A stretch of DNA of 38,572 nt, taken from the NCBI GenBank assembly GCA_943328785.2, contig CALQBJ020000008.1, positions 1 to 38,572 on the forward strand. The letters run 5' to 3'. Each line of letters begins with the position of its first letter. Positions within the stretch are counted from its first letter, which is position 1. Of this stretch, positions 1,687 to 28,598 are shown piece after piece. This DNA is from Bifidobacterium breve. Its GTDB lineage: Bacteria > Acidobacteriota > Vicinamibacteria > Vicinamibacterales > CAVVIG01. Under the pieces are notes generated by a model. It worked only from the letters and a program-made list of their open reading frames with translations. It had not been told where the DNA came from and did no database searches. The position numbers and the translations under genes are program-made.

Positions 1687-1689
1687 GCT

Positions 1690-1721
1690 CCACCGCTCCA
1701 CTTCTGGCCACTATTTTCCAC
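1690..1721 (-). promoter_or_regulatory. MraZ operator: GTGG repeats at 10-bp spacing
   Basis: On the minus strand GTGG occurs at 1718-1721, 1708-1711 and 1698-1701, exactly 10 bp apart, with a fourth copy at 1690-1693 (8 bp on). Direct GTGG(G) repeats with one-helical-turn spacing upstream of mraZ are the known binding target of the MraZ ring in E. coli. Here they lie between the predicted transcription start (about 1719) and the mraZ start codon, so bound MraZ would block initiation. Confidence 0.8.
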
Positions 1722-1725
1722 GTCG

Positions 1726-1754
1726 ATGGTAAGAGACGGCAGGGGGCCTGTCAA
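1726..1754 (-). promoter_or_regulatory. Sigma70-type promoter of mraZ-rsmH-ftsL
   Basis: Minus-strand -35 TTGACA (1749-1754, perfect), a 17-bp spacer, and -10 TACCAT (1726-1731, 4 of 6). The predicted start is near 1719, inside the MraZ repeat array. This is one of only two perfect TTGACA -35 boxes I found in the window; the other is at the FadR-type operator. Confidence 0.75.
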
Positions 1755-1959
1755 CCGCAAAAGGCAATCCGCCAGTAACTTACGCCGTATCTTCATCGCG
1801 ATTTCAGTCTCGGGCGTACGCCCATAGCGCCACTAATTTGGGGCGATGCCAGAACGACGGTAAGGAAGGGTTCATGTTCCGGCAGCCGCCAAGGTCGCGA
1901 ATCCTGCACCAGGAGTCCGGTCACGGCCTCGGAATGCGGTACGATTCTGGGTTTGCCGC

Positions 1960-6642: not shown

Positions 6643-6645
6643 CCG

Positions 6646-6651
6646 TATACT
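6646..6651 (+). promoter_or_regulatory. -10 element TATACT six nt before the start codon
   Basis: TATACT lies 6 nt before the ATG at 6658, so transcription would be expected to start at or next to the A of the ATG. No Shine-Dalgarno sequence and no convincing -35 are visible. It implies a leaderless transcript separate from the glycan operon that ends at 6642. Confidence 0.55.
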
Positions 6652-6657
6652 GACGCC

Positions 6658-7314
6658 ATGCGACTGCACGTCCTCGGTCTCATCGTCGCAGCCATGGCGC
6701 TTGCCGGCACTCCGGCCTCGGCTCAGGTGCGCATCACGATCGCCGACGGACGGGTGACGGTGTCCGCGAAGGACGCCACCACCCGCCAGATCCTCACCGA
6801 GTGGGCCCGGGTGGGCCAGACACGCATCGTGAACCTCGATCGCCTGTCTGGCGCGCCGCTGTCGCTCGAACTGACCGACGTGCCCGAGACGCAGGCGCTC
6901 GAGACCGTGCTGCGCGCGGCCAGCGGCTACCTGGCCGCGCCGCGCGCACGCGAACTGCCCAACGCCTCTCGCTACGACCGCATCTTCCTGCTGGCCTCGA
7001 GCAGCGGCAGCACCGCCCGCCCGAGCGCGCCGGCACCACCGCCCTCGCCCGCCTTCGCGCCGCCGCCGTTCAACGATGAACAACCGGTCGACGAGGAGTC
7101 GCCGCCTCAGTCGGCCACGCAACAGCACCAGAACCTCCCGATTCGCGGGCCGGCCTTCGCTACGTTCCCGCAGCCGCAACCGCAGGCACCACCGCCGCCC
7201 CAGCGTGAGGTCACGTTCGCCGCGCCGCCGTTCGGGGCACCGGCGGGCGTCTCGACGCCAGGCATGGTCGTGCCCGCGCCGCCGCCGGCCGCCCCGCCCA
7301 ACACCGATCGCTGA
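6658..7314 (+). CDS. Secreted protein with STN-like domain and Pro-rich tail
   Basis: A 218-aa protein. An N-terminal signal peptide (MRLHVLGLIVAAMALAGTPASA, cleavage before QVRI) predicts export. Residues about 23-100 (VRITIADGRVTVSAKD, LSLELTDVPETQALETVLRA) resemble the short secretin/TonB N-terminal (STN) beta-alpha-beta module. The rest (about 118-218) is low-complexity and very rich in Pro, Ala and Gln, as in periplasmic linkers. No enzyme motif is visible. It is transcribed in the same direction as yqeY and murJ and may have its own leaderless promoter. The STN assignment is a by-eye resemblance, and the precise function is unknown. Confidence 0.75.
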   Translation: MRLHVLGLIVAAMALAGTPASAQVRITIADGRVTVSAKDATTRQILTEWARVGQTRIVNLDRLSGAPLSLELTDVPETQALETVLRAASGYLAAPRARELPNASRYDRIFLLASSSGSTARPSAPAPPPSPAFAPPPFNDEQPVDEESPPQSATQQHQNLPIRGPAFATFPQPQPQAPPPPQREVTFAAPPFGAPAGVSTPGMVVPAPPPAAPPNTDR

Positions 7315-7350
7315 ACGCGCCGCCGCGTTTCGCAGGAGTTCAATACACCC

Positions 7351-7803
7351 ATGTCACTCGTCGACGAGATCAGCGCCGCCATCACCGACGCCATGCGCCA
7401 GAAGCACGCCGCACGCCTCAGCGCCCTGCGGATGCTCAAGGCCGCCTTCATGAACAAGAGCATCGAGAAGGGGCACGACCTCGACGACGGCGAGGCGCAA
7501 CAGGTGGTGGGTGCACTGGTGAAGCAGCGGCGCGACTCGGTCGATCAGTTCCAGAAGGGTGGCCGCCAGGACCTCGCGGACAAGGAACTGGCCGAGATCA
7601 CGATCCTCGAGTCGTACCTGCCGCCCGCCGCCGACCCGGCCCTGATCGAGCAGGCGGTCGTCGACGCCATTGCGGAAGCCGGGGCAACCTCCGCGAAGGA
7701 CATGGGCAAGGTGATGAAGGCCGCGATGGCGAAGCTCGCCGGCCAGACCATCGACGGCAAGGTCGTCAACGAGCTCGTCCGGAAGAAGCTGGCTGGCGCC
7801 TAG
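7351..7803 (+). CDS. yqeY: GatB/YqeY domain protein
   Basis: A 150-aa cytoplasmic protein of the YqeY family, which is related to the tail domain of the GatB amidotransferase subunit. The family pattern is clear: LVDEISAAITDAMRQKHAARLSALRMLKAAF at the N-terminus, then VVGALVKQRRDSVDQFQKGGRQDLADKE, ILESYLP, and the C-terminal SAKDMGKVMKAAM followed by IDGKVVNELVRKKL. Full length for the family. AGGAG lies upstream at an 11-12 nt gap, slightly long. It ends 3 nt before murJ, so the two are likely cotranscribed. The cellular role of the family is not well established; a link to amidated tRNA is inferred from the GatB relationship. Confidence 0.93.
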   Translation: MSLVDEISAAITDAMRQKHAARLSALRMLKAAFMNKSIEKGHDLDDGEAQQVVGALVKQRRDSVDQFQKGGRQDLADKELAEITILESYLPPAADPALIEQAVVDAIAEAGATSAKDMGKVMKAAMAKLAGQTIDGKVVNELVRKKLAGA

Positions 7804-7806
7804 CGC

Positions 7807-9435
7807 ATGGCACAGGTTCCGGCCGCGGACGCGCCGCCCGACACCGGCACCTCCGACCCGCTCGCCCGGGCGGCCGGCATCGCCGGCGCCGCCACCCTCA
7901 CCAGCCGCATCCTTGGACTCGTACGCGAGCAGGTGCTCGCCGCGCTCTTCGGCGCGGGCGACCAGATGGATGCGTTTCTGGTCGCCTTCCGCATTCCCAA
8001 CCTACTGCGGGACCTGTTCGCCGAAGGCGCCATGAGCGCGGCGTTCGTCCCGACCTTCACCGCGCACCTCACCACGCATGGCAAGGCCGACGCGTGGCGG
8101 CTCGGCAACAACGTGCTGAACGCGCTCCTGCTGATCACCGGCGCGCTCGCGCTGCTGGGGACGCTCTTCGCGACGCCGCTCGTCACGCTCTACGCCGAGA
8201 ACTTTGCGGCGGTGCCAGGCAAGCTCGAGCTCACGGTCACGCTGGCGCGGGTCATGTTCCCGTTCATCACGCTCGTCGCGATCGCGGCGGCGGCCATGGG
8301 CATGCTGAACTCGCTCCGGCACTATTTCGTGCCGGCGCTCTCACCGGCCACCTTCAACCTGGTGGCGATCGTGTTCGCGGTGGCGCTGACACCCGTGATG
8401 CCGATGCTCGGACTGCCGCGCATCATGTCGATGGCGGTAGCGGCGCTGGTCGGCGGATTGGCGCAGGTGCTGGTGCAGTGGCCGACGCTGCGCCGTGAAG
8501 GGTTCCGCTATCGACCGGTGCTCGATTGGCGCGACCGCGGGTTGCGCCAGGTGCTGACGCTGATGGGGCCTGGCACCGTCGGCCTCGCCGCCACCCAGGT
8601 AAACCTGCTCGTCAGCACGCTACTCGCCACCAGCCAGGGCACCGGCGCGGTGTCGTGGCTGCAGTATGCGTTTCGCGTGATGTACCTGCCGCTCGGGCTC
8701 TTCGGGGTCTCGATCGCCACGGCGGTGCTGCCGGCGGCGGCCCGTCACGCAGCGCTGGACGACCGCGACGCCGTGCGCCGCACCGTCTCGCAGGGGCTGG
8801 CGCTGATGCTGGTGGTGAACATCCCAGCCACCTGCGGCCTCATCGCCCTCGCCCCCGAGATCATCCGCCTGCTGCTCGAACGTGGGCACTTCACGGCCGT
8901 CGACACCACCGCCACCGCCGCGGCGTTGCGCCTGTATGCCGTCGGGCTCGTCGGCTACTCGACGACACGCATTGCGTCGCCGGTCTTCTACGCGCTCGGT
9001 CGCAGCCGGGTGCCGGTGACGCTGAGCATCATCTCGATGCTCACCAACCTGGGCCTGAGCCTCGCGCTCGTGCGTGTGATGGGGTTCGGCGGTCTCGCCC
9101 TCGCCACGTCGCTGGCGGCGCTCGTCAACGCGACGCTCTGCGTTGCGCTGCTGCGCCGCCATCTCGACGGGCTGGCCGGCCGCTCGCTGGCGCTCACGTT
9201 CCTGAAGACCGGAATCGCGGCGGCCGCGATGACGATGGCCGTGGTGGGCGTGAACCGTTCACTGTCCGGCGGGGCTGGCGATACGGGCACCGTCGTGCAG
9301 GCGCTCCACCTCGTTGCGGCGATCGGCGCCGGCCTGCTCGCGCTGGCGCTCACCGCGCGGATGCTGCGGATCGACGAGTTCACGTCGCTCTCAGCAGAAG
9401 CGCGCAAGCGGGTACAGAAGCTGCTCGACCGCTGA
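7807..9435 (+). CDS. murJ: Lipid II flippase MurJ
   Basis: A 542-aa polytopic inner-membrane protein of the MOP/MviN family that flips undecaprenyl-linked peptidoglycan precursor to the periplasm. Diagnostic stretches are AGAATLTSRILGLVREQVLAALFG near the N-terminus, DAFLVAFRIPNLLRDLFAEGAMSAAFVPTF, MFPFITLV, and the central SWLQYAFRVMYLPLGLFGVSIATAVLP. About 14 hydrophobic segments are spread along the sequence, as expected. The ATG at 7807 is 3 nt after the yqeY stop, implying one transcript. The N-terminal 15-20 residues (AQVPAADAPPDTGTSD) are a short polar extension. Confidence 0.96.
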   Translation: MAQVPAADAPPDTGTSDPLARAAGIAGAATLTSRILGLVREQVLAALFGAGDQMDAFLVAFRIPNLLRDLFAEGAMSAAFVPTFTAHLTTHGKADAWRLGNNVLNALLLITGALALLGTLFATPLVTLYAENFAAVPGKLELTVTLARVMFPFITLVAIAAAAMGMLNSLRHYFVPALSPATFNLVAIVFAVALTPVMPMLGLPRIMSMAVAALVGGLAQVLVQWPTLRREGFRYRPVLDWRDRGLRQVLTLMGPGTVGLAATQVNLLVSTLLATSQGTGAVSWLQYAFRVMYLPLGLFGVSIATAVLPAAARHAALDDRDAVRRTVSQGLALMLVVNIPATCGLIALAPEIIRLLLERGHFTAVDTTATAAALRLYAVGLVGYSTTRIASPVFYALGRSRVPVTLSIISMLTNLGLSLALVRVMGFGGLALATSLAALVNATLCVALLRRHLDGLAGRSLALTFLKTGIAAAAMTMAVVGVNRSLSGGAGDTGTVVQALHLVAAIGAGLLALALTARMLRIDEFTSLSAEARKRVQKLLDR

Positions 9436-9478
9436 CCGACTGCCATGGCCCGACGTGTTACGATCGAATGACGCGCCC

Positions 9479-10246
9479 ATGCGCCGACCACCTTCCCGCT
9501 ACGGATCGTCGATGTCGTTCGGCCCAGGGCCGCTGTCCTCAGCGCTCAAGGGGCTGATCGGTACCACTGTCGGCATCTTCCTGCTGCAGGTCGTCGCCGA
9601 GTGGACCGGCTGGAATCTGACGTGGACCTTCAGCCTGCGTCCGGTCGAGGTGCTCGAGCACTTCCAACTGTGGCGCGTTGCCACCTACATGTTCCTGCAC
9701 GATCCGAGGAACCTGTTCCACCTGCTCTTCAATATGCTCGCGCTCTGGATGTTCGGCAGCGAACTCGAGCGGATCTGGGGCACGCGCTACTTCCTGACGT
9801 TCTACTTCGTCACCGGCATCGGCGCCGGTGTGCTCACCGCGCTCTTCTCACTGCTGCCGTTCGACTTCGCCGCCCACGTCTACGGTTCGTACATCTACGG
9901 CGCATCGGGCGCCATCTTCGGGTTGCTCCTCGCGTATGCGATGTACTTCCCGGAACGCGAGATGTACCTGTGGATGCTGTTCCCGGTGAAGACGAAGTAC
10001 GCCGTGATGATCTTCGGCGCCATCGAACTCTTCCTCACCATCACCGGCAGCAGCGGCGTCGCGAACGCCACGCATCTCAGCGGTTTCGTCGTGGCGTATC
10101 TCTTCCTCAAGGGCGGGCGGATGCGGTTGCACCCGTGGTCCGAGGTGAAATACCGGTATCTGAAGTGGAAGATCAACCGGGCACGCGCCCGGTTCGACGT
10201 CTACCAGGGCGGCCGCGCACAGGACTGGGACCGCAAGGTCCACTGA
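9479..10246 (+). CDS. Rhomboid-family intramembrane serine protease
   Basis: A 255-aa polytopic membrane protease. The catalytic dyad is present: GASG with Ser about 143 and His about 199 in THLSGF. The oxyanion-region H81/N85 in HLLFNMLALW is also present, followed by MFGSELERIWG. Six to seven hydrophobic segments are visible, then a basic C-terminal tail (YRYLKWKINRARARFD). The start is either the ATG at 9479 or the ATG at 9512 (MSFGPGPLSS). I prefer 9479, but the choice is uncertain because neither has a good Shine-Dalgarno. A TACGAT hexamer at 9459-9464 may be its -10. It converges on doxX with a 39-bp gap. Confidence 0.9.
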   Translation: MRRPPSRYGSSMSFGPGPLSSALKGLIGTTVGIFLLQVVAEWTGWNLTWTFSLRPVEVLEHFQLWRVATYMFLHDPRNLFHLLFNMLALWMFGSELERIWGTRYFLTFYFVTGIGAGVLTALFSLLPFDFAAHVYGSYIYGASGAIFGLLLAYAMYFPEREMYLWMLFPVKTKYAVMIFGAIELFLTITGSSGVANATHLSGFVVAYLFLKGGRMRLHPWSEVKYRYLKWKINRARARFDVYQGGRAQDWDRKVH

Positions 10247-10285
10247 CGACCGTCGCGGCTCACGCCACACCGCCTCGGACACCCG

Positions 10286-10302
10286 TCAGCGCCGGACGCT
10301 GA
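10286..10302. terminator. Small inverted repeat between convergent genes
   Basis: TCAGCG, a CCGGA loop, then CGCTGA. It overlaps the DoxX-family stop codon and lies 40 nt past the rhomboid stop. There is no U-tract, so it could only be a weak or factor-assisted terminator. Confidence 0.25.
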
Positions 10303-10726
10303 GGGGCAACCGCACACCGCCGAACGCCAGTCCGAGCGTCGCTCCCAGCACAGGCAAGCCGTAGCCGTTGGTGAGGATGGCGTAGGTGAACAGTGCGCCG
10401 CTGGCCACATGGATGTTCAGCACCATCATGAACGCCAGAAAGGCCGCGAGCGACGTCCAGACCCCGGCAATCAGCGCCAGACCCGCTGCGATCTCCCCCA
10501 ACGGAACAAGACGCGCGAAGACGGCCGTGCCGGGAATGGCCACATGCTCGAGGTACCAGTGCGACGGCGAACCCGCAGCGGCCTCAGCGAGCCAGTGGCT
10601 GAAGCGTCCGGCGAGGATGGAGGCATCCATCAACCACCGGTACTTATTCAGACCTTCGAAGAGAAAGAAGACGCCGAGGGCGATGCGGATGATGGTGAGT
10701 CCGGTCGCCTGCCTGTCGATTGCCAT
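10286..10726 (-). CDS. DoxX-family membrane protein
   Basis: A 146-aa protein with four hydrophobic segments and the DoxX pattern: GLTIIRIALGVFFLFEGLNKY at the N-terminus, FARLVPLGEIAAGLALIAGV in the middle, then FLAFMMVLNIHVASG. DoxX relatives are small inner-membrane proteins tied to quinone or thiol redox functions in some species; no specific role can be read here. The ATG at 10726 has AGGTG about 7 nt upstream (CAGGTGACAACC), which settles the start over an in-frame ATG at 10777. It lies 51 nt downstream of the cupin gene in the same direction, probably in one transcript. Confidence 0.88.
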   Translation of the reverse strand: MAIDRQATGLTIIRIALGVFFLFEGLNKYRWLMDASILAGRFSHWLAEAAAGSPSHWYLEHVAIPGTAVFARLVPLGEIAAGLALIAGVWTSLAAFLAFMMVLNIHVASGALFTYAILTNGYGLPVLGATLGLAFGGVRLPLSVRR

Positions 10727-10777
10727 GGTTGTCACCTGCTGAAGCCGCGCTGACGGCAGCCCCCGACGCCTGGCCAT

Positions 10778-11140
10778 TCAGCGCGGCAGCTCTTCGTCGG
10801 CGCCGGCGAGCCATTCTTCACGGATCGGGCTGAAGACGTCGAGTTCGAAGGTGTCTTCGAGTGCTTCGGCCTGATGCGCGACCCCGGACGGGATGCGCAG
10901 CACTTCGCCTTCGCGCACGGTGATTTCCTCCCCGGCCACGACGAACCGGAGAGCCCCCTGGAGCACGTAGGTCATCTGCTCGCTCCGATGGGCGTGCATC
11001 GGCACGAGACAGCCGCGCTTAAGGTAGACCTGGACCAGCATCTCGCGCTCGCCGGTGACGATCTTCCTGGACAGCATCTCGGTGACCTTGTCGAGCGCAA
11101 TCTCATCCCACCGGTGCAATCGCACGCCAGTCTGTCCCAT
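10778..11140 (-). CDS. Cupin-domain protein
   Basis: A 120-aa single-domain cupin. The metal-binding motif 1 is [16 protein letters not shown] (His about 49 and 51, Glu about 54), followed by G-rich turns ([16 protein letters not shown]) with the motif 2 His at about 89. This is typical of small conserved cupins that bind a divalent metal; ligand and reaction are unknown. I choose the ATG at 11140 because a TATCCT hexamer lies 9 nt upstream, as at other starts in this window; an in-frame ATG at 11164 would add eight residues. It is divergent from the 2-oxoacid dehydrogenase gene with only 51 bp between start codons. Confidence 0.88.
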
Positions 11141-11149
11141 GCACGCTTG

Positions 11150-11155
11150 AGGATA
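11150..11155 (-). promoter_or_regulatory. -10-like TATCCT of the cupin gene
   Basis: Minus-strand TATCCT lies 9 nt before the ATG at 11140, with no Shine-Dalgarno between them. It faces away from the TATACT at 11177-11182, so two promoters share this 51-bp divergent gap. Confidence 0.4.
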
Positions 11156-11176
11156 TCCCAACATCGCGGGGTGCTA

Positions 11177-11182
11177 TATACT
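11177..11182 (+). promoter_or_regulatory. -10 element TATACT of the 2-oxoacid dehydrogenase gene
   Basis: TATACT (within TATATACTT) lies 9 nt before the ATG at 11192, predicting a leader of about 3 nt. No Shine-Dalgarno sequence and no clear -35 are visible. Confidence 0.5.
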
Positions 11183-11191
11183 TCGAAATCG

Positions 11192-13336
11192 ATGAAGAGC
11201 GCCGTCGCGAGCGGTGATCGTCAGGCAGCGAAGGTTGCAGAGGCCGCATTCAATGGGCTCTCCCGCGACCAGGTCCTCGACGCCTATCGCACCATCGTCC
11301 TGTCGCGAAAGATCGACGACAAGGAAATCCAGCTCAAGAACCAGAGCCAAGCGTTCTTCCAGATCAGCGGCGCCGGCCACGAGGCCATTCTCGTCGCCGT
11401 CGGCATGACGCTGCGCCCAGGTTACGACTGGTTCCACCCCTATTACCGCGATCGGGCCCTCTGCCTGCAGCTCGGCGTCACGGCGCTCGACATGCTGCTG
11501 GCGTCGGTCGGCGCGGATGCCGACCCGAGCAACGCCGGTCGCCAGATGCCGTCACACTGGGGCAACAAGTCGCTGAACATCGTCGCCGGTTCCAGCTGCA
11601 CGGCCACGCAGGTGCTGCACGCCGTCGGCATGGCCGAAGCGGGCACGCTCTACAGCCGGATCGAGCAGATCGCGAACCGCGAGACGCTCTTCCACGCGGA
11701 CGAAATCGTCTACACCTCGCTCGGCGAAGGGTCGACCAGCGAAGGCGAATTCTGGGAAGCGGTCAGCGTGTCGTGCACGCGCCACATCCCGGTCCTGTTC
11801 CTCGTCGAAGACAACGGCTACGCCATCTCGACGCCGGTCGAAGTCGAGATGCCCGGCGGCGATATCTCGAAGCTGCTGCGCTCGTTCCCTAGCCTGCACA
11901 TCGAAACGGCCGACGGCACCGACCTGTTCGACAGCCTACGCGCCGTGCGCGCGGCCGCAGACTACGTGCGTGCCCGCAAGGGGCCCGCGCTGGTGCACGC
12001 GCACGTCATCCGCCCGTACTCGCACTCGCTGTCCGACGACGAAAGGCTGTACAAGACGGCGGCTGAACGCGAGGCGGAAGCGAAGCGCGACCCGATCGGC
12101 CGTCTGGCCACCTTCATCACCACGAACGGCCTGGCGACTGCCGCCGACCTGGCCAGCCTCGAAGCCGAGCTCGACCGCGAGGTGTCGCTCGCCGCCGAGC
12201 AGGCGGTGGCGGCGCCGAAACCGTCGAAGAACACCGTCACCCACTTCGTCTACTCGCCGACCGTCGACCCGACGTCGGCTGCGTTCGACACGCCTGCCAC
12301 TCCGCACGGCAAGCCCGAGACGATGGTGGACGCGATCAACGAGACGCTGAAGGACGAGATGGCGCGCAACCCGCGCATCATCATGTTCGGCGAGGACATC
12401 GCGGACGCGAGCCGCGCCGAGGCCCTGAAGGAAGTGAAGGGCAAAGGCGGCGTGTTCAAGGTCACGCATGGCCTGCAGCGCATCTACGGCAGCGACCGCG
12501 TGTTCAACGCGCCGATTGCCGAAGCCGGCATCGTCGGCCGCGCCATCGGCATGGCCATGCGCGGACTCAAGCCGGTGGTCGAAATTCAGTTCTTCGACTA
12601 CATCTGGCCCGCGATGATGCAGATTCGCGACGAGATGTCGATGCTGCGCTACCGCTCGGGCAATCACTGGACGTGCCCGGTCGTGATGCGCGTGCCGATC
12701 GGCGGCTACCTGCGCGGCGGTGGCCCGTACCACAGCCAGTCGGGCGAGAGTATCTTCGCCCATTGCCCCGGCCTGCGCGTCGTCTACCCGTCCAATGCGG
12801 TGGATGCGGCCGGCTTGCTCCGCACGGCCATCCGCTGCGACGACCCGGTGCTCTACCTCGAGCACAAGCACCTGTACCGCCAGACCTACAACAAGGGCGA
12901 GTACCCTGGTGCGGACTTCATGATCCCGTTCGGCAAGGGCGCCATTCGCCGCGAAGGCTCCGACGTGGTCGTGCTGACGTGGGGCGCGCTCGTGCAGCGC
13001 TCGCTCCTCGCGGCACAGCAGGCGGCGGAACGCGACGGCATCGAGGCGGCCGTGTTCGACCTGCGCAGCATCATGCCGTTCGACTGGGAGGCGATCTCGG
13101 CGCTGGTCAAGCGGACCAACCGCGTCGTCATCGCGCACGAGGACGCGCTCACCTGCGGCTTCGGCGCGGAACTCGCCGCGCGCATCGCTGACGAACTGTT
13201 CCCCTATCTCGACGCGCCGATCCGGCGCGTGGCGGCGCTCGACACGCCGGTGGCCTACTCACCGGACCTCGAAGAAGCGATCCTGCCGCAGACCTCGGAC
13301 GTCCTCGCCGCCATTCGCGCCGTCGCGAAGTTTTAA
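11192..13336 (+). CDS. 2-oxoacid (branched-chain type) dehydrogenase E1, fused alpha and beta subunits
   Basis: A 714-aa thiamine-diphosphate enzyme that decarboxylates a 2-oxoacid and acylates the E2 lipoyl domain. Residues about 25-345 are the alpha subunit ([59 protein letters not shown]). Residues about 377-714 are the beta subunit ([54 protein letters not shown], and a C-terminal transketolase domain). Branched-chain oxoacid is the likeliest substrate class. The ThDP motif is atypical: GEG instead of GDG and DN instead of NN. E2 and E3 genes are not in the window. The ATG at 11192 follows a TATACT by 9 nt. Confidence 0.93.
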
Positions 13337-13646
13337 AGCGGTTCTCCCTCGCAATCGCCGGCCGGTTCCGCGATCCGCGCGGCGTCCAGCAGTCGGCCTC
13401 GGGACGCGACTTCAACTTTGCCCGCCTGGCGGACGAGATGTGGGGCATCGATTCCCACTTCGACGGCCCGTTCCGGATCGTGGAGATCGGCAGCGAACCC
13501 GGCCGGATCATCGACCCGACGTCGTTCGCCGTGGCCGACGCACCGTGATGAGCGGCGCCGGCGCGGTCTCACCGGCCACGATGTGCGTCGGGCCGGGCGG
13601 CCGGTTGCTCATCAAGTCAGGGCTGCACGAATACGACGTCGGCTGA
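13337..13646 (+). pseudogene. Remnant of a secreted 6-bladed beta-propeller gene
   Basis: No intact gene fills the space between the E1 gene and the fad operon. One frame without a proper start reads RFRDPRGVQQSASGRDFNF, then LADEMWGID, then FRIVEIGSEPGRIIDPTSF and VADAP before a stop at 13546-13548. A second short frame (ATG 13549 to 13646) follows. The EIGSEPGRIIDPTSFxVADAP segment resembles the NHL/6-bladed beta-propeller proteins common in acidobacteria, as I remember them. I read it as a decayed fragment, but the assignment is by eye and weak. Confidence 0.35.
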
Positions 13647-13673
13647 AACTGCGCCGGAAGACCGGGGTGTGGC

Positions 13674-13679
13674 TTGACA
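13674..13679 (+). promoter_or_regulatory. -35 TTGACA of the fad operon promoter
   Basis: A perfect TTGACA. Spacing of 17-18 bp puts the -10 at about 13697-13703 (for example GAACAT, 3 of 6), fully inside the FadR-like palindrome at 13692-13711. Transcription would then begin near 13710, downstream of the ATG at 13696. A repressor bound to the palindrome would occlude the -10. Confidence 0.6.
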
Positions 13680-13691
13680 CCCCTTTCACCA

Positions 13692-13711
13692 CTGAATGAA
13701 CATTCATTCAG
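13692..13711. promoter_or_regulatory. FadR-type (TetR family) operator
   Basis: CTGAATGAACATTCATTCAG: two perfect 9-bp arms around a 2-bp centre. The core TGAATGA-N4-TCATTCA matches the operator known for the TetR-family FadR of Bacillus subtilis, which represses beta-oxidation genes and is released by long-chain acyl-CoA. It sits over the predicted -10 and precedes fadN, fadA and fadE homologues, which fits the same regulatory logic. Confidence 0.85.
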
Positions 13712-14193
13712 CGTCATGCTCGCCACCCCTGCCGCGCGACGCGATCCTCCGTGCGGCCATCGACGTGTTCGCCGAACGCAGCTACTTCAATGCCCAGGTG
13801 GCCGACGTGGCACGCGCCGCTGGCGTCGCGGCCATCGAGGACCCAGCTGAGCGCCTTCGCCGCTTCGCGCAGTTGCACCTGGCCATGCTCGGCCGCGACC
13901 GCAACCTTGCCATCGTCTTTCAGGTGGAGCTGCGGCAATCGGTGAAGTTCATGGAGCGGTTCTCGGCGACGCTCCTGCGCGAGTACCTCGGGCAGATTCG
14001 TGCCACGATCGAAGCAGGCCAGAAGAGCGGCGTCTTTCGCAAGAACCTCAATGCCACCACCGTGGCGAAGATGTTCTTCGGCGCGCTCGACGAGATGGCC
14101 ACCAACTGGATCCTGAGCCGGCGGCGCTACAACCTCGAACTGGACGCCGACGCAGTCGTAGACATTTTTCTCGACGGGACACGCCCACGATGA
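13696..14193 (+). CDS. FadR-like TetR family regulator lacking the recognition-helix region
   Basis: A 165-aa protein whose two ends match the fatty-acid-responsive FadR branch of TetR. The N-terminus has helices 1-2 (ILRAAIDVFAERSYFNAQVADVARAAGVA) and the C-terminus the ligand domain (LHLAMLGRDRNLAIVFQVELRQSVKFME, MFFGALDEMATNWILSRRRYNL). Between GVA and EDPAERL the usual GTIYLYF recognition helix and helix 4, about 35 residues, are absent in frame. The first ATG lies inside the operator and upstream of the predicted transcription start. A more natural ATG at 13715 is in another frame. DNA binding is therefore doubtful. The stop overlaps fadN (ATGA), so the reading frame may survive through translational coupling. 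Confidence 0.8.
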   Translation: MNIHSASCSPPLPRDAILRAAIDVFAERSYFNAQVADVARAAGVAAIEDPAERLRRFAQLHLAMLGRDRNLAIVFQVELRQSVKFMERFSATLLREYLGQIRATIEAGQKSGVFRKNLNATTVAKMFFGALDEMATNWILSRRRYNLELDADAVVDIFLDGTRPR

Positions 14194-16472
14194 CGCAGCC
14201 ATCCTCCATCCGTTCAGCCGCCGTGCTCGGTGCCGGCACCATGGGTTCGCAGATTGCGGCGCACCTGGCGAACGCCGGCATTCCCGTGCTGCTGCTCGAC
14301 GTCACCCCAGAGGCGGCGCGCGAGGGCCTGAAGAAGGCGGCGGCGCTGAAGCCCGACCCATTCTTCACGAAGCAGGCAATCGCCCGCATCTCCACCGGCG
14401 GCTTCGTCACCGACCTGGCTAAGGTGTCCAGCGCTGACTGGATCATCGAGGCGGTCGTCGAGAAGCTCGACGTGAAGCAGATGCTGTTCACCCAGATCGA
14501 GCCGCTGCGCGCGCCGCATGCGATCGTGTCGTCGAACACCAGCGGCATTCCGATCGCCGCGCTCGCCAACGGGCGCAGCGCCGAATTCCGCGCACACCTC
14601 GTCGGCACCCACTTCTTCAACCCGCCGCGCTACCTGCGGCTGGTGGAAGTGATTCCGACGCCCGATACCGACCCGGCGGTCGTGGAACGCATCACCCGCT
14701 TCTGCGATCTCGCCCTCGGCAAGGGGGTGGTGCCGGCGAAGGACAGCCCGAACTTCATCGCCAATCACATCGGCCTGTACGGCGTCGTGCACCTGATACG
14801 TGCGCTGGAGTCGGGCCAGTACACGATCGAGGAGATCGACGCCATCACCGGACCGGCGCTCGGACGCCCGAAGAGCGCCACGTTCAGGACGATGGACATC
14901 GCGGGACTCGACGTCCTCGATCATGTGCTGCGCAACCTGCAGGAACGGATGCCCGAGGACACGCAGCGCTCCGGCTTCACGCTGCCGCACATCGTCGCCG
15001 ACCTCGTGCACCGTGGCTGGACGGGCGGGAAGGCCGGTCAGGGTTTCTACAAGCGTGAAGGCGCCGACATCCTCACGCTTGATCCCGCGACGATGACCTA
15101 CCGGCCGAAGCAGCCGGCGCGCCTCGCCTCGCTCGATGCGGTCAAGGGTGTCGACGACGTGGCCGCGCGCGTGCGGACGCTCTTCAACAGCCCAGACAAA
15201 GCGGGCACGCTGCTGCGCGACACGTTGGCGCCCATGCTCGTCTACACCGCGACGGTGGCGCCGTCCATTGCCAACTCGATCGACGATGTCGACCGCGCCA
15301 TGCGGTGGGGCTTCGGCTGGGACCTGGGTCCGTTCGAGCTGTGGGACGCCATCGGACTCCAGGCCGTGCTCGACGTGGCGAAGCCGGCCACGGTGCCGCC
15401 GCTGGTCGCCGCGCAACTCGCCGCCGGCCGCACCCGCTTCCGTGATGGTCTGGTTGCGCCCGCGGCACCAGGGCTGCAACTGCTGCGCTCGGCGAAGGAG
15501 CGCACCGCGGTCCTGAAGAAGAATCCCGGTGGCAGCCTCGTCGACCTCGGCGACGGCGTGCTCTGCGTCGAGCTGCACTCGAAGATGAACGCCATCGGCG
15601 CCGACACGATGCAGATCGTGCAGGCGGGTCTCACCGAAGCCGCGGCGAACTTCGAGGCGCTCGTTATCGGCACCGACGCGGTCAACTTCTCCGCCGGTGC
15701 CAACCTGATGCTCGTGCTCGTCGAGGCGCAGGACGGCAACTGGGACGAGATCGACCTGATGGTCCGCATGTTCCAGAAGGCGACGCTGTCGCTGCGCTAC
15801 TCGCCGGTGCCGGTGGTGCTGGCGCCGTGCGGCCTGGCGCTCGGCGGCGGCTGCGAGTTCGTGCTGCACGGCGACCGCGTGCAGGTAGCGGCGGAGACCT
15901 ACATCGGCCTCGTGGAAGTGGGCGTTGGCCTCATCCCCGCTGGCGGCGGCACGAAGGAAATGACGCAGCGTGCCGCGCGACAGGCCGCCAGCGCGAAGGC
16001 CGACCTGCAGCCGTTCGTGCAGGCGGCCTTCGAGACCATGGCGCTCGCGAAGGTGTCGACCAGCGGTGCGAACGCACGGCAACTGGGCTATCTGCACGAT
16101 CACGATCCGATCTCGATGAACCGGGAACGGCTCCTTGCCGATGCGAAGGCGACGGCGCTCGATCGCGTGCGCGAAGGCTATCGCCCGCCGGTGCCGGAAC
16201 CGATTCCGGTCGGCGGCGAAAGTCTCGAGTCGGCCCTGAAGCTGGGCGTGCACCTTGCCTGGCGCGCGGGCCGCGCCACTGATCACGACGCGGTTATCGG
16301 CCGCGCCCTGGCGCACATCGTCGCTGGCGGGTCGCTGCCGCACGCGACGCAGGTGAGCGAGCAGTACCTGCTCGACCTCGAGCGCGAAGCGTTCCTGAAG
16401 CTGTGCGGCGAGCGCAAGACGCTGGATCGGATCCAGCACACGCTCAAGACCGGCCAGCCGCTCAGGAACTAA
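14190..16472 (+). CDS. fadN: 3-hydroxyacyl-CoA dehydrogenase / enoyl-CoA hydratase, FadN type
   Basis: A 760-aa bifunctional beta-oxidation enzyme. The NAD-binding dehydrogenase domain comes first (AAVLGAGTMGSQIAAHLANAG at about 9-29, SSNTSGIPI, GTHFFNPPRYLRLVEVI, GKGVVPAKDSPNFIANHIG), then the dehydrogenase C-domain (DIAGLDVLDHV, GWTGGKAGQGFYKR). The crotonase fold lies at about 440-620 (NFSAGANL, PCGLALGGGCEFVLHGD, VEVGVGLIPAGGGTKEM). This order, dehydrogenase before hydratase, is that of Bacillus FadN and opposite to E. coli FadB. It hydrates enoyl-CoA and oxidises the 3-hydroxyacyl-CoA for the thiolase downstream. The ATG overlaps the regulator stop. Confidence 0.95.
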   Translation: MTQPSSIRSAAVLGAGTMGSQIAAHLANAGIPVLLLDVTPEAAREGLKKAAALKPDPFFTKQAIARISTGGFVTDLAKVSSADWIIEAVVEKLDVKQMLFTQIEPLRAPHAIVSSNTSGIPIAALANGRSAEFRAHLVGTHFFNPPRYLRLVEVIPTPDTDPAVVERITRFCDLALGKGVVPAKDSPNFIANHIGLYGVVHLIRALESGQYTIEEIDAITGPALGRPKSATFRTMDIAGLDVLDHVLRNLQERMPEDTQRSGFTLPHIVADLVHRGWTGGKAGQGFYKREGADILTLDPATMTYRPKQPARLASLDAVKGVDDVAARVRTLFNSPDKAGTLLRDTLAPMLVYTATVAPSIANSIDDVDRAMRWGFGWDLGPFELWDAIGLQAVLDVAKPATVPPLVAAQLAAGRTRFRDGLVAPAAPGLQLLRSAKERTAVLKKNPGGSLVDLGDGVLCVELHSKMNAIGADTMQIVQAGLTEAAANFEALVIGTDAVNFSAGANLMLVLVEAQDGNWDEIDLMVRMFQKATLSLRYSPVPVVLAPCGLALGGGCEFVLHGDRVQVAAETYIGLVEVGVGLIPAGGGTKEMTQRAARQAASAKADLQPFVQAAFETMALAKVSTSGANARQLGYLHDHDPISMNRERLLADAKATALDRVREGYRPPVPEPIPVGGESLESALKLGVHLAWRAGRATDHDAVIGRALAHIVAGGSLPHATQVSEQYLLDLEREAFLKLCGERKTLDRIQHTLKTGQPLRN

Positions 16473-16507
16473 TGGTCGTTAGTCATTCGTCGTTGGTCGT
16501 TGGTCGC
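16473..16507 (+). repeat. Five tandem 7-bp units
   Basis: Immediately after the fadN stop: TGGTCGT, TAGTCAT, TCGTCGT, TGGTCGT, TGGTCGC. Each unit is exactly 7 bp with consensus TGGTCGT. Non-coding; it resembles short heptanucleotide tandem repeats reported in other bacterial groups. Confidence 0.75.
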
Positions 16508-16517
16508 GAAGGGGCAT

Positions 16518-16541
16518 GTAGCTGCGGACCTTCAGGTCCGC
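16518..16541 (+). repeat. Dispersed hairpin repeat, copy 1
   Basis: GTAGCT followed by a perfect palindrome of 8-bp arms, GCGGACCT-TC-AGGTCCGC. It lies between fadN and the following hydrolase gene, just after the heptad array. A second copy is at 24397-24420 on the other strand and differs only at two paired stem positions. As RNA it would form a 7-bp stem with a UUCA loop, which may trim or attenuate the operon transcript. Confidence 0.75.
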
Positions 16542-16554
16542 CTGTAGCAGGAGC

Positions 16555-17367
16555 ATGACAGACCCGTTCGAGATCGTGGAGCTAGGCGCGGGGGCACCGC
16601 TCGTGCTCATTCCGGGTGTCCAGGGACGCTGGGAGTACTCGCGTGCGCTCGTGTCGGCACTCGCCCGCGTCTACCGGGTCATCACGTTCTCGCTCTGCGA
16701 TGAGCGCAGCGTTCGCGCCGGCCAGCAGCCCATCGACGCGTTCGCCGATCAGGTGGAGTCGGCGCTCGATCGGCTGGGTATCGACCGAGCCGCCATCGTC
16801 GGCGTGTCGTTCGGCGGCCTCGTGGCGCTGCGCTTCGCGGCGACACGCCCGCATCGTACTTCGGCGCTGACGATGGTCTCGGCACCGGGACCGCGCTGGC
16901 ATCTGCGTCCGCGCCACGACCTCTACGCGCGCCTGCCGTGGCTGTTCGGGCCACTGTTCCTCATCGAGTCGCCGTTCCGGTTGCGCAAGGAAATCCAGGC
17001 GGCGCTGCCGGGTTGGCGTGCACGGCTGGCCTACCTGCGCGAACAGGCCGGCATCATCACGTCGGCGCGCGTGTCGCTGTCGCGGATGGCGGCGCGAGCC
17101 AGGCTCATCGGGTCGTACGACCGCGTGGCTGACACGACGCTCGTCACAGCACCAACCCTCATCGTCCAGGGGGACGATGCGCTCGACCACGTGACCGGCT
17201 CTGGCGGCACGGCGGACTATGCGCGGCTCATCGCCCATGCGCGGCATGCGCGGATGGACCGCACCGGGCACCTCGGCTCCGTCACGAGACCGGACGAGTG
17301 CGCGGCCCTCATTCATCAGTTTCTCGTCGATGCGAAGAAGGACAGTCGTGACAGCAGTGCTGCGTGA
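16555..17367 (+). CDS. Alpha/beta hydrolase
   Basis: A 270-aa cytoplasmic alpha/beta-hydrolase fold protein. The oxyanion-loop region is APLVLIPGVQGRWEYSRAL near residues 13-31. The nucleophile elbow GVSFGG carries the catalytic Ser (about residue 84), a late Asp is in VQGDDALDHV, and the catalytic His is in TGHLGS near 240. It is embedded in the beta-oxidation operon between fadN and fadA, so an acyl-ester or acyl-CoA/lipase-type substrate is plausible but not shown. The ATG at 16555 has AGGAG only 1 nt upstream, too close for a normal ribosome-binding site. Its 3' end overlaps the next gene by 20 nt. Confidence 0.88.
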   Translation: MTDPFEIVELGAGAPLVLIPGVQGRWEYSRALVSALARVYRVITFSLCDERSVRAGQQPIDAFADQVESALDRLGIDRAAIVGVSFGGLVALRFAATRPHRTSALTMVSAPGPRWHLRPRHDLYARLPWLFGPLFLIESPFRLRKEIQAALPGWRARLAYLREQAGIITSARVSLSRMAARARLIGSYDRVADTTLVTAPTLIVQGDDALDHVTGSGGTADYARLIAHARHARMDRTGHLGSVTRPDECAALIHQFLVDAKKDSRDSSAA

Positions 17368-18022
17368 GTTCCAGGGACCTGCGGGTCGTCTCGAAGCGAT
17401 TCTCGATCTGCCCGTGCCGAAGGGTGTGACCAGCGACGGGCTCGCCGCCACGGGCGCCGACGGCGGCATCCGCGCCGCGGTCGTGCTTGGCCACCCCCAC
17501 CCGCAGTTCGGCGGGACGATGCACACCAAGGGCATCTATCACACGGCCAAGGGGCTGACGCGGATCGGCTGCGCGGTGCTTCGTTTCAACTTCCGCGGCG
17601 TCGGCAAGAGCGAGGGCGCGTGGGATGAAGGGCGTGGCGAACGCGACGACTTCACGGCCGGACTCGACGTGATGGCCGCGCGCTTCCCCGGCGTGCCGTT
17701 GTGGGCTGGCGGCATGTCGTTCGGCTCGTGGGTCGGCATGAACGTCGGTGTCGTCGATCCGCGCGTGTCGGCGCTCATCGGCATCGCTGCGCCCGTGAGC
17801 AAGTGGGACTTCGCCGAGGTGGAAAAGAGCCCGAAGCCGAAGTTCTTCGTGCACGGCGAGATGGACGAGATTAGCGGCTTCCGCGAGATCAACGCCTTCT
17901 ACGCACGTGCCGCTGACCCGAAGGAACTGGTCATCATCGACTCGTCCGATCACCTATTCAACGGAGTTGTGGCTGAAGTGGCCGACGCGATCGAATCGCT
18001 GCTCGGCGACTGGAACGGATGA
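17348..18022 (+). CDS. Alpha/beta hydrolase, COG2945-like small serine hydrolase
   Basis: A 224-aa cytoplasmic hydrolase. Recognisable parts are VVLGHPHPQFGGTM (oxyanion region), VLRFNFRGVGKSEG (strand with conserved FRGVG), the nucleophile motif GGMSFGSW with catalytic Ser, FFVHGEMDEISG with the acidic residue, and DSSDHLFNG with the catalytic His. This pattern is that of the small COG2945 dienelactone-hydrolase-like family. The start is the GTG at 17348 with AAGGA about 6 nt upstream; the in-frame ATG at 17330 lacks a ribosome-binding site. It overlaps the previous gene by 20 nt and ends 3 nt before the thiolase, so it is inside the fad operon. Substrate unknown. Confidence 0.87.
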   Translation: MTAVLREFQGPAGRLEAILDLPVPKGVTSDGLAATGADGGIRAAVVLGHPHPQFGGTMHTKGIYHTAKGLTRIGCAVLRFNFRGVGKSEGAWDEGRGERDDFTAGLDVMAARFPGVPLWAGGMSFGSWVGMNVGVVDPRVSALIGIAAPVSKWDFAEVEKSPKPKFFVHGEMDEISGFREINAFYARAADPKELVIIDSSDHLFNGVVAEVADAIESLLGDWNG

Positions 18023-18025
18023 ACC

Positions 18026-19195
18026 ATGCATGATGCTGTGATTGTCTCCGCCGTCCGCACGGCCGCCGGCAAGGCGCCCACTGGCACACTCCGCGGCACG
18101 AGGCCCGATGAGCTGGCCGCTGCCGTCATCACCGAGGCATTGCGCCGGGCGGTGGGCATCGACGCGGCGGAGATCGAGGACGTCATTCTCGGCTGCGCGA
18201 TGCCGGAGGGCGAGCAGGGAATGAACGTCGCGCGCATCGCGAGCTTGCGCGCCGGCGTCCCGGTGAGCGCCTCGGCCGTCACGGTCAATCGCTTCTGCGC
18301 CTCCGGCCTGCAGGCGATCGCCTACGCCGCCGAGCGCATCATGACCGGAGGGTCGTCGGTCATCGTCGCCGGCGGCACCGAGTCGATGAGCATGATTCCG
18401 ATGGGCGGCTTGAAGGTGTCGCCGAATCCGGCGCTGATGAACAGCTACCCTGACGTGTATCTCAGCACCGGGCTGGTCGCCGAGAACCACGTCAAGGACT
18501 ACGGCATCTCGCGCGACGACCAGGATGCCTTCGCGCTACGCAGCCACCAGCGTGCACTGGACGCCATCGATGCGGGCCGGTTCACCGAAGAGATCGTGCC
18601 GATCACGGCGCGCCTGTTCGACCCCGCCAGCGGCACGACCATCGAGAGCCTCTTCAGCGTGGACGAAGGCCCGCGGCGCGACACCTCGGCCGCCGCGCTC
18701 GCGCAACTGCGAGCCGCATTTCACGTCGCCGGCAGCGTCACCGCCGGCAATTCCTCGCAGATGAGCGACGGCGCGGCGGCGGTGGTGGTCACCAGCGCGG
18801 AGCTGGCGAAGGCGCGCGGGCTCACGCCGCTGGCGCGCTTCGTGGCCTACGCCACGGCAGGCGTCGAACCCGAGAAGTTCGGCATCGGCCCGGTGCCGGC
18901 GGTGCTGAAGGTGCTGAAGCTGGCCGGGCTGACGCTCGACCAGATGGACGTCGTCGAGTTGAACGAGGCGTTCGCGGCGCAGGCGCTGGCCTGCCTGCGC
19001 GAGCTGCCGATCGACCCCGAGAAGCTGAATGTGAACGGCGGCGCCATTGCGCTCGGGCATCCACTCGGATGCACCGGCGCGAAGCTGACGGCGACGGCGC
19101 TCCATGAACTGCGGCGACGCAACGGACGCTACGCGATGGTGACCATGTGCGTCGGCGGCGGCATGGGCGCGGCCGGTATTTTCGAACGGATGTAA
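18026..19195 (+). CDS. fadA: Acetyl-CoA acyltransferase (3-ketoacyl-CoA thiolase)
   Basis: A 389-aa thiolase that cleaves 3-ketoacyl-CoA to acetyl-CoA and a shortened acyl-CoA, the last step of beta-oxidation. The nucleophilic Cys is at about 91 in [14 protein letters not shown], the active-site His at about 345 in [10 protein letters not shown], and the second Cys at about 375 in [10 protein letters not shown]. The N-terminal [19 protein letters not shown] and NGGAIALG are also typical. Length matches the family. It lies 3 nt after the hydrolase and 2 nt before fadE. Partner of FadN, as in the Bacillus fadNAE operon. A biosynthetic acetoacetyl-CoA thiolase is the alternative, but the context favours degradation. 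Confidence 0.95.
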
Positions 19196-19197
19196 CC

Positions 19198-20976
19198 ATG
19201 AGCAGCAACAGCGGATTGATCCTGCGCGGTGGCGAGTTCCTGCTGCGGGCGACGGCACCCGACGATATCTTTACGCCCGAGCAGCGGACCGACGAACATC
19301 GGATGATCGGCGACACCGTGCGCGACTTCGTCACCAACGAGGTGCTGCCGGTGCTCGACCGGCTCGAGTCGAAGGACTGGGCGCTGTCGCGAGAACTGGT
19401 GAAGCGCGGCGCCGCGCTCGGCATCATGGGCGCCGACGTGGCGGAAGAGTACGGCGGGCTGGCACTCGACAAGGTGTCGTCGGTGGTCATCAGCGAGCAG
19501 ATCTCGAAGTCTGCGTCGTTTGCGGCCACCTTCGGGGCGCACGCCAACCTGGTCATCCTGCCGTTGTCGCTGTTCGGCACGGACGCGCAGAAGCGGCAGT
19601 ACCTGCCGCGCCTGCTGAGCGGCGAGCTGATTGGCGGCTACTGCCTGACCGAGCCGGGTTCCGGCTCCGATGCCCTCGGCGCGAAGACGCGCGCCACGAA
19701 GCAGGCGGACGGCAGTTACCTGTTGAGCGGCGAGAAGATGTGGATTACGAACGGCGGCTTCGCCGACGTGTTCATCGTCTTTGCGAAGGTGGACGGCGAG
19801 CAGTTCACCGCCTTCATCGTCGAGCGCGCGTTCGGCGGGCTGACCAGCGGCAACGAGGAGCACAAGATGGGGCTCCACGGCTCGTCGACCACGCCGATCC
19901 TGCTGCAGGACGTTCGCGTCCCACCCGAGAACGTGCTCGGCGAGGTTGGCAAGGGGCACAAGGTGGCGTTCAACGTGCTGAACTTCGCCCGCTACAAACT
20001 GGGTGCGATGTGCAGCGGCGGCGCACAGGGCGCCATCGGCGAGTCGGCGAAGTATGCGGCACAGCGCAAGCAGTTCGGCCAGCCGATCGCCTCGTTCGGC
20101 GCCATCAAGCACAAGCTCGGCGAGATGGTCGTGCGCGCCTTCGCGGTGGAGAGCCTCATCTACCGCACGGCGGGGATGATCGACACGCGTGTGTCGGCGA
20201 CGCCGCACGAAGCGGCAGACCAGTCGGTGGTGCTGCAGGCCGTCGAGGAGTACGCCGTCGAGGCGTCGATCGCCAAGGTGGCCGGTAGCGAGATGATGAA
20301 TTTCGTCCTCGACGAGAACATCCAGGTGCACGGCGGCAATGGCTACGTGCGCGACTACCCGGCTGAGCGCGAGTTCCGCGACTCGCGCGTGAACCGCATC
20401 TTCGAAGGCACCAACGAAATCAACCGGCTGCTCATCCCGGGCATGCTGGCGCGCCGCGCGGTGAAGGGCGACATCGGCCTCATTGCGGCAGCGGAGGCGC
20501 TACAGGACGAACTGCTCGGGCCAGCCGCCCTGCCGTCGGGCGATGACGCACCGCTGGCGGACGAACGCCGCGCGGTGGAGTCGTTCAAGAAGGCGTCGCT
20601 GATGGTGCTCGGCCTCGCGATGCAGACCTACCGCGAGAAGCTCGGGGAACAGCAGGAGGTGCTGCTGCACCTGGCCGACATGATCATCGACACCTACGCG
20701 GCCGAGAGCGCGCTGCTCCGGGCTTCCGCCGCCGCCGCGGCCGCGCGCAGCGGGGCGTCGCTGCAGGCCGATGCCACGCGGGTATTCGTGAACGATGCGG
20801 CGATGCGCATCGAGGCATCGGCGAAGCAGGCACTCGCGGCGATGCTCGATGGCGACACGCTGCGGACGATGGTGGCAGCGCTGAAGCGGCTGTTCCGGCA
20901 GATGCCGATCAACACCGCGGCGCTGCGGCGCACACTGGCCGACGCGGCCGTGGCTCGCGGCGCGTACCCCTTCTGA
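19198..20976 (+). CDS. fadE: Acyl-CoA dehydrogenase, FadE type (long form)
   Basis: A 592-aa flavin-dependent dehydrogenase that makes 2-enoyl-CoA, the first step of beta-oxidation. The core is visible in order: EEYGGLALDKVSSVVISEQ, CLTEPGSGSDALGAKTRA, SGEKMWITNGGFADVFIVFAK, GLHGSSTTPILLQDVRVP, NVLNFARYKLGAMCSGGAQ, QVHGGNGYVRDYPAER, and RIFEGTNEINRLLI with the predicted catalytic Glu. A helical extension of about 170 residues follows, as in the roughly 594-aa Bacillus FadE and in very-long-chain enzymes. Electrons would go to ETF, which is not encoded here. The ATG at 19198 is 2 nt after the fadA stop. Confidence 0.95.
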   Translation: MSSNSGLILRGGEFLLRATAPDDIFTPEQRTDEHRMIGDTVRDFVTNEVLPVLDRLESKDWALSRELVKRGAALGIMGADVAEEYGGLALDKVSSVVISEQISKSASFAATFGAHANLVILPLSLFGTDAQKRQYLPRLLSGELIGGYCLTEPGSGSDALGAKTRATKQADGSYLLSGEKMWITNGGFADVFIVFAKVDGEQFTAFIVERAFGGLTSGNEEHKMGLHGSSTTPILLQDVRVPPENVLGEVGKGHKVAFNVLNFARYKLGAMCSGGAQGAIGESAKYAAQRKQFGQPIASFGAIKHKLGEMVVRAFAVESLIYRTAGMIDTRVSATPHEAADQSVVLQAVEEYAVEASIAKVAGSEMMNFVLDENIQVHGGNGYVRDYPAEREFRDSRVNRIFEGTNEINRLLIPGMLARRAVKGDIGLIAAAEALQDELLGPAALPSGDDAPLADERRAVESFKKASLMVLGLAMQTYREKLGEQQEVLLHLADMIIDTYAAESALLRASAAAAAARSGASLQADATRVFVNDAAMRIEASAKQALAAMLDGDTLRTMVAALKRLFRQMPINTAALRRTLADAAVARGAYPF

Positions 20977-22827: not shown

Positions 22828-22897
22828 CACTCGTCACACACGGCTCTTGGGACGTGTGACCAACGACTGGGGCGAGCATTCGTCCCAGTGACGAGTG
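22828..22897. repeat. Nested inverted repeats downstream of the HAD gene
   Basis: Outer arms are perfect 10-mers: CACTCGTCAC at 22828-22837 and GTGACGAGTG at 22888-22897. Inner arms are GTCACAC at 22833-22839 and GTGTGAC at 22854-22860, which share bases with the outer left arm, so two alternative hairpins compete. There is no U-tract. It could be a terminator or a trace of a small mobile repeat. Confidence 0.45.
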
Positions 22898-22924
22898 ACA
22901 GGCGCTGCCTTTCATACTCGCCGC

Positions 22925-23340
22925 ATGGCCGACTTTTCTCCACGGAGGATGTCCCCCAGGCGCCTGATGAAAGCGGCGCTTGTGCTGCTCGTTACCCTCT
23001 ATCTCTGCGGCGGGAAGGCCCGCGCCCACAGCATCACCGGTACCAGCCACCGCCATGTCCACCCTGCCCATGGGCTGGCGCCAACGCAGGCCCTGCCGCT
23101 CGCAGCCAGCCGGACATTCCGGGTGTCACCCCACAGGTCCGCGGAACCTGAACCCTCCAAACGTGCTCGAGTACGCCGTCGGCGTCAACCGGCAGTTCGG
23201 GAGCCGAGCAGCGCTGCGCGCCGACTACGTCTTCCGCAACTACCGCGACTGCTCCTCGCAGCGGACCGACGTCGATGGCACCGACAGGCGGTCGAGAACA
23301 TGGGGCAACGTGAACGGCGCGAACCACGTGAACACCACCC
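22925..23340 (+). pseudogene. Collapsed TonB-dependent receptor gene (N- and C-terminal scraps)
   Basis: From the ATG at 22925 a signal peptide is intact (LMKAALVLLVTLYLCGGKARA) and is followed by HSITGTSHRHVHPAHGLA. I align this by eye with the SITGT-x-GxVxDxxG start of the carboxypeptidase-regulatory domain found on Oar-like acidobacterial receptors. About 70 bp later, in other frames, come PDIPGVTPQVRGT (up to 23151) and NLNPPNVLEYAVGVNRQFG plus ALRADYVFRNYRD (to about 23260), the style of the receptor's C-terminal barrel strands. At least two frameshifts and loss of most of a roughly 1000-residue protein are implied. CATACT lies 6 nt before the ATG. The rest of the gap to 23440 shows no gene. 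Confidence 0.55.
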
Positions 23341-28566: not shown

Positions 28567-28585
28567 GCAGAGTTCTCCGAGCGGA

Positions 28586-28591
28586 ATTCTA
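28586..28591 (-). promoter_or_regulatory. -10-like TAGAAT upstream of the secreted hydrolase gene
   Basis: Minus-strand TAGAAT, 19 nt before the ATG at 28566, with a predicted leader of about 12 nt that just includes the GGAG ribosome-binding site. No good -35. Confidence 0.35.
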
Positions 28592-28598
28592 GTGCGAA

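Follow-up and report, generated by a model that had tools for sequence, protein, structure and literature searches.

FadR proteins of the TetR family are the closest described counterparts of the gene analyzed here. The operator consensus of Bacillus subtilis FadR is of the TGAATGA...TCATTCA type, and three PDB entries (3whb, 1vi0, and 5gp9) are presumably Bacillus FadR/YsiA. In the parts of its published account cited here, FadR of Thermus thermophilus is a TetR-type, palindrome-binding regulator tied to fatty acid degradation genes, with the operator TTRNACYNRGTNYAA and several target operons (PMC5597230). Our window (the whole stretch of 38,572 nucleotides that was analyzed) carries a fadR gene that resembles the Bacillus one in the type of its operator and in its place beside beta-oxidation genes, and its ligand domain aligns over the full length with the three PDB entries (phmmer E values of 1.1e-18, 1.2e-18, and 2.8e-20, respectively). 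Unlike Bacillus FadR, the window copy is without helix 3, the greater part of helix 4, and the usual start. It also differs from the Thermus system, as described in those parts, in the operator itself and in having one operator in the assembly against several targets. Narrow searches of the literature gave nothing useful on TetR regulators without a helix-turn-helix or on the operator word beside FadR.

The open reading frame at positions 13696 to 14193 codes for 165 amino acids, and the Pfam domain TetR_C_4 (the YsiA-like ligand domain) covers residues 44 to 160 (E value of 4.8e-25; 88.7 bits against a cut-off of 21). Together with the alignment of homologues, this match agrees with a preliminary description of the locus, which had placed the protein in the FadR branch of TetR and judged its ligand domain to be intact, as it is by sequence. 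The gene belongs with the FadR/YsiA branch of the TetR family, for which a DNA binding released by acyl-CoA is presumed. At the N terminus, TetR_N is matched only at positions 1 to 29 of 47, and a complete helix-turn-helix is absent; the intact relative L003 covers positions 1 to 46. The NCBIfam FadR model, scored on the window protein alone, gave 112.6 bits, below its cut-off of 200 and best over residues 48 to 162. The surviving frame is open, with no stop before its ATGA overlap with fadB, which is followed by two alpha/beta hydrolases and then a thiolase. An AlphaFold model built from 28 aligned sequences has a mean pLDDT of 79.5 overall, with block means of 81 to 95 at residues 51 to 70 and 91 to 165, so that most of the ligand domain is well modeled. 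The remnant of helices 1 and 2 is weaker (block means of 69 to 76), and residues 81 to 90 are poor (51). Such a model describes a possible fold of the chain and is no sign of its production.

What the protein lacks is a block of 35 residues (105 bp), made up of the recognition helix together with most of helix 4. Homologues were taken from 68 loci with a FadR frame, 17 of which were dropped as their last 120 residues are identical to those of another, leaving 51 plus the window; two of the loci, L010 and L018, are cut on the 5' side by a contig end. The missing interval is exactly 105 nt in all 51 distinct aligned homologues, and the gap spans 35 alignment columns. Where relatives such as L003 read GVAAGTVYLYF..., the window reads GVAAIEDPAERL, with GGCGTCGCGGCC fused to ATCGAG at the junction. 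The alignment with acidobacterial homologues, which the preliminary description had called for, confirms its claim that the recognition helix is gone, and helix 4 for the most part, and its estimates of size and place (about 35 residues and 105 bp, near 13840) were accurate. A recognition helix relocated in the protein or in another frame was considered separately and rejected, as the nucleotide alignment shows the 105 bases to be absent, not shifted.

The 105-bp loss joins similar short sequences, the codons for GVA and AVA. The 12 bases before both break points match at a mean of 7.0 positions among the 13 family genes and 6.4 among all 51 homologues, against a background of 3.8, and the longest exact word common to both break points has 8 bases (13 family genes). 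Since the break points carry these similar short sequences, a slipped-strand deletion between short direct repeats may have produced the loss.

The preliminary description had taken the loss as a clean, in-frame one. This is right for the 105-bp deletion, but a second, frameshifting deletion near the start had been missed. In the nucleotide alignment, the stretch from 13716 to helix 1 is shorter in the window than in the relatives, the difference in bases not being divisible by three, and the frame that opens at the relatives-type start soon ends (Table 1). Among the homologues with the operator in reach, 47 of 49 have an in-frame ATG, GTG, or TTG between the operator and helix 1 (the first of them at most 25 nt from the operator in 44 of those 47), the exceptions being L058 and L082; the window has none. 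After the ATG that lies within the operator, the next in-frame start of the window gene is the GTG at 13765, already inside helix 1. Of 48 homologues, 24 have the operator ATG in a frame other than that of fadR. This ATG is in frame in L082, where it is the sole start before helix 1 and may serve as the start codon, and because L082 shares this situation with the window, a start at the operator ATG is not impossible.

The palindrome at the promoter, described as intact in the preliminary account, is indeed perfect. A sigma-70 consensus scan of positions 13300 to 14300 gave no full promoter above threshold. There is a candidate -35 element, TTGACA, and a TTGAC or TTGAT box lies at most 34 nt from the operator in 44 of 49 relatives. 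From the position of the TTGACA, 13 nt 5' of the operator, transcription would start at or behind the operator. As a side observation, the distance from box to operator is 12 to 13 nt in 25 of the 49 homologues, 20 to 25 nt in 15, and 28 to 34 nt in 4, with no such box within 40 nt in the other 5. The two main spacing classes are about one helical turn apart and possibly represent two placements of the operator relative to the promoter.

Table 1. Features of the fadR locus and of the adjacent propeller gene remnant (positions in the window).
Feature	Position	Strand	Evidence or remark
NHL/beta-propeller remnant, N-terminal part	13354..13535	+	blastn, 79.7% to G001:C35 46631-46812
Propeller remnant, C-terminal end	13554..13640	+	tblastn, residues 370-398 of the G001 400-codon open frame, 72%
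TTGACA, candidate -35 element	13674..13679	+	13 nt before the operator
FadR-type operator TGAATGAACATTCATTCA, intact	13693..13710		0 mismatches; chance expectation in the window 0.00
ATG within the operator	13696..13698	+	Sole ATG/GTG/TTG opening the annotated frame before helix 1
Frame opened by the ATG immediately 3' of the operator (relatives-type start)	13716..13850	+	44 codons, TGA at 13848-13850; frameshifted
DNA-binding domain remnant, helices 1-2 (RDAILRAAIDVFAERSYFNAQVADVARAAGVAA)	13735..13833	+	Pfam and alignment
Junction of the 105-bp deletion	13822..13836	+	Alignment; exact break ambiguous inside a short repeat
Acyl-CoA-binding/dimerization domain (TetR_C_4), intact by sequence, including the stop codon	13834..14193	+	Pfam, alignment, AlphaFold
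fadB-type 3-hydroxyacyl-CoA dehydrogenase/enoyl-CoA hydratase	14190..16472	+	ATG overlaps the fadR stop (ATGA)

One of the readings offered in the preliminary description was that a second, full-length FadR elsewhere in the genome uses this operator. The perfect preservation of the operator speaks for it, and about 3% of the genome may be absent from the assembly (3.83 Mb in 312 contigs, 96.8% complete and 3.6% contaminated). The search for a FadR paralogue and for extra operator sites that had been proposed along with this reading was run, and neither was found in the assembly. TetR_C_4 occurs only once, the six other genes with TetR_N are not among the TetR_C_4 matches, and the window protein finds itself and a single match at an E value of 0.26. 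No operator beyond the one at fadR was found with up to two mismatches. Moreover, across the order, all 77 genomes that carry FadR gave a single match each at E values of 1e-25 or below. These results argue against a second FadR, which we consider very improbable.

We have also analyzed the occurrence of FadR and its operator in related genomes. The intact FadR of L003 was searched against 162 genomes of the order, and 77 of them, the window genome included, gave a match at the threshold just mentioned; the survey of gaps covers matches of this strength. In 74 of the 77, the match is unbroken, begins no later than query residue 18, and covers the helix-turn-helix. In G053, the match begins with base 1 of the contig and the recognition helix is present, and in G063 it is cut 2 bases from a contig end, so that the window genome is the only one of the 77 with an internal gap. 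The L011 locus (genome G010) has a FadR frame of 296 amino acids with an N-terminal extension of about 80 residues before helix 1, perhaps an insertion. No second assembly of the window species turned up, although one of the searches may omit very near records.

Of the 26 other genomes in the family of the window genome, 13 gave a strong FadR match and all 26 a fadB match, in some cases a partial one; among the 13 that lack FadR, 8 have a completeness of at least 90%. Among the matches listed, the palindrome (with 0 or 1 mismatches) is found in FadR-bearing genomes mostly at fadR, with one additional 1-mismatch site each in G017 and G033, and the FadR-less genomes G003, G024, and G046 each have a single 1-mismatch site elsewhere. 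Of the 51 fadB loci listed as FadR-less, we examined 28 (11 plus 17 of a set of 40), and 2 of these (L059 and L066) proved to be FadR-bearing, which leaves 26 rows from 21 distinct genomes, 5 of them represented twice. The remaining 23 loci were left out: L099, in which the start of fadB is missing, and 22 with fadB at about 48 to 54% identity. In the 1.2 kb before fadB, none of the 26 rows has an operator at fewer than four mismatches, nor a FadR remnant except for a weak match of 26 residues in L084 (E value of 0.001). Among the loci examined, operator and repressor are kept or lost together at the fadB locus, and the window is the sole intermediate seen.

The order of genes in the intact relative G005 is E1 dehydrogenase, propeller, fadR, and fadB. 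The congener G001 (the same sequence as L048, JAFDVO010000041.1) has E1, propeller, and fadB, with neither fadR nor the operator at that place. In three other loci (L036, L040, and L041, from genomes G011, G008, and G022), both fadR and the propeller gene are gone and the E1 dehydrogenase gene is followed by fadB at a distance of about 5 to 11 bases, which may place beta-oxidation under the promoter of the E1 gene there.

The comparison with the congener extends to the rest of the window, as positions 1 to 34135 are collinear by blastn, with gaps, with contig C35 of G001. Over 1 to 13326 and 14186 to 20976 there are six gaps of at least 12 nt, of 15 to 51 nt in size. The gene between E1 dehydrogenase and fadR, which is intact in G001 (336 amino acids) and occupies the same place in G005, is broken in the window into two propeller pieces with about 210 residues missing between them; by tblastn, the N-terminal remnant runs from 13153 to 13527 with a gap of 28 residues. 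One gap in the propeller remnant, of 24 bp and in frame, lies between similar short sequences. A putative TonB-receptor-like gene, so named by appearance only, has an open frame of 1,054 codons in G001 and is represented in the window by pieces at 22892 to 23306, with several internal deletions (tblastn). The window also contains about 1.2 kb (28554 to 29840) that are absent from G001 at the collinear place. Gene loss by internal deletion recurs in the window; the preliminary description, which had taken the fadR lesion alone, was correct on that lesion being real in the sequence and had missed the decay of the neighboring genes.

Three genes with internal deletions in one window could also be read as an assembly fault, and this is the main rival to reading fadR as a pseudogene. 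The lesions would then stem from reads joined in a chimeric path, from a minority strain, or from an error of the assembly, and the living cell would have a full-length fadR. The fragmentation and contamination of the assembly are consistent with such an origin, as are the perfect operator, the otherwise constrained appearance of the gene, the absence of this state from the other 76 FadR-bearing genomes of the order, and a propeller remnant about as similar to the congener as intact genes are. However, there are two separate lesions in fadR, and the flanks show only the six gaps mentioned above. The word shared by the break points is also far shorter than the word lengths usual in assembly. 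Finally, because the congener has lost fadR altogether, a loss of this gene in the genus is not strange. Taken together, we regard an artifact as unlikely.

The remaining frame was also compared with its intact relatives. Between the window gene and L003, the nearest intact gene, pairwise dN/dS is low, about 0.13 for the ligand domain (dS 1.03, dN 0.132) and about 0.03 for helices 1 and 2 (dS 0.85, dN 0.029), and both values are within the range of intact pairs. Among the positions that are invariant elsewhere, the window changes 1 of 38, the G of the RG[YF]F motif, which is S in the window, while the other genes change 0 to 2 of 38 to 40. Of the 82 such positions counted for the family, 4 are changed in the window, as in the intact genes L006 and L009, the joint highest count. 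Neither dN/dS nor the invariant positions indicate relaxed selection on the remaining frame. The sole hint of it is the terminal branch of the window gene, the longest among the 14 family genes (0.266 versus 0.063 to 0.228), and it points no more than mildly to faster change. With no clear long-term decay, the loss is recent, or the frame is maintained by something, or the lesion is not real. As helices 1 and 2 show no long release from selection, the loss of fadR looks recent.

Maintenance of the frame would be expected if the short protein had a function of its own. A FadR without its helix-turn-helix could be made from the operator ATG or from an internal start, dimerize, and act as an acyl-CoA sink or as a partner of another regulator, and the preliminary description had included such a residual acyl-CoA-binding partner among its options. 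The ligand domain, intact by sequence and well modeled for the most part, would suit this role, as would the frame that stays open up to fadB, its low dN/dS, and the precedent of L082, which suggests that the operator ATG is usable as a start. Against it, the usual start is frameshifted, the AlphaFold confidence drops in the remnant of helices 1 and 2 and around residues 81 to 90, and those two helices, which have no evident use once helix 3 is gone, are not relaxed. A long-lived, DNA-free FadR is disfavored in particular, since helices 1 and 2 should then have drifted. No comparable state was seen in the other 76 genomes, and being found in 1 of 77 FadR-bearing genomes, the short protein is not a maintained form in the order. 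A functional short protein is thus improbable, and we give equally little credence to its specific version in which a DNA-free acyl-CoA-binding dimer serves as a buffer or an anti-regulator and the operator is left to serve only as a promoter.

We consider it likely that the window gene is a fadR pseudogene of recent origin, with its operator left behind. Compared with intact orthologues, it carries disrupting lesions, namely, the 105-bp deletion and the frameshift behind the usual start. By analogy with the family, an intact FadR is expected to occupy the palindrome, which overlaps the promoter and start of its own gene, and to be released from it by long-chain acyl-CoA. A first deletion, of non-triplet length and located between the usual start and helix 1, would have put that start out of frame, and a second one, of 105 bp, would have removed the recognition helix along with most of helix 4. 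One assembly supports these lesions, and we assume that they are real in the cell. The truncated product should not bind the operator because its helix-turn-helix is missing, and with no such binding the operator would be a leftover and fadB and the genes that follow it would probably no longer be repressed by FadR. The constitutive fad operon that the preliminary description had put forward is the option that fits best with a lost repressor, as far as expression can be predicted from sequence.

If the pseudogene is real, the window captures an intermediate stage that other members of the family seem to have gone through already, in which the repressor breaks first and operator and gene vanish afterwards, the end state in some genomes being a fadB directly behind the E1 dehydrogenase gene. 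It is also a warning that an open frame with a good Pfam match can be a dead regulator with its apparent start inside its own operator. Beyond this, little changes for the specialist.

The locus also resembles fadR of related acidobacteria (Vicinamibacterales, e.g., G005/L003), with which it shares the operator, the ligand domain (79% identity), and the place before fadB. In G005/L003, unlike in the window, the helix-turn-helix is complete and fadR has an in-frame start behind the operator. Pseudogenes of bacterial regulators can arise by gene loss through small deletions, and the window gene resembles them in its small internal deletions, its decayed neighbors, and a congener that lacks the gene. 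Unlike them, it appears to have been caught early, with the ligand domain and the operator still uneroded.
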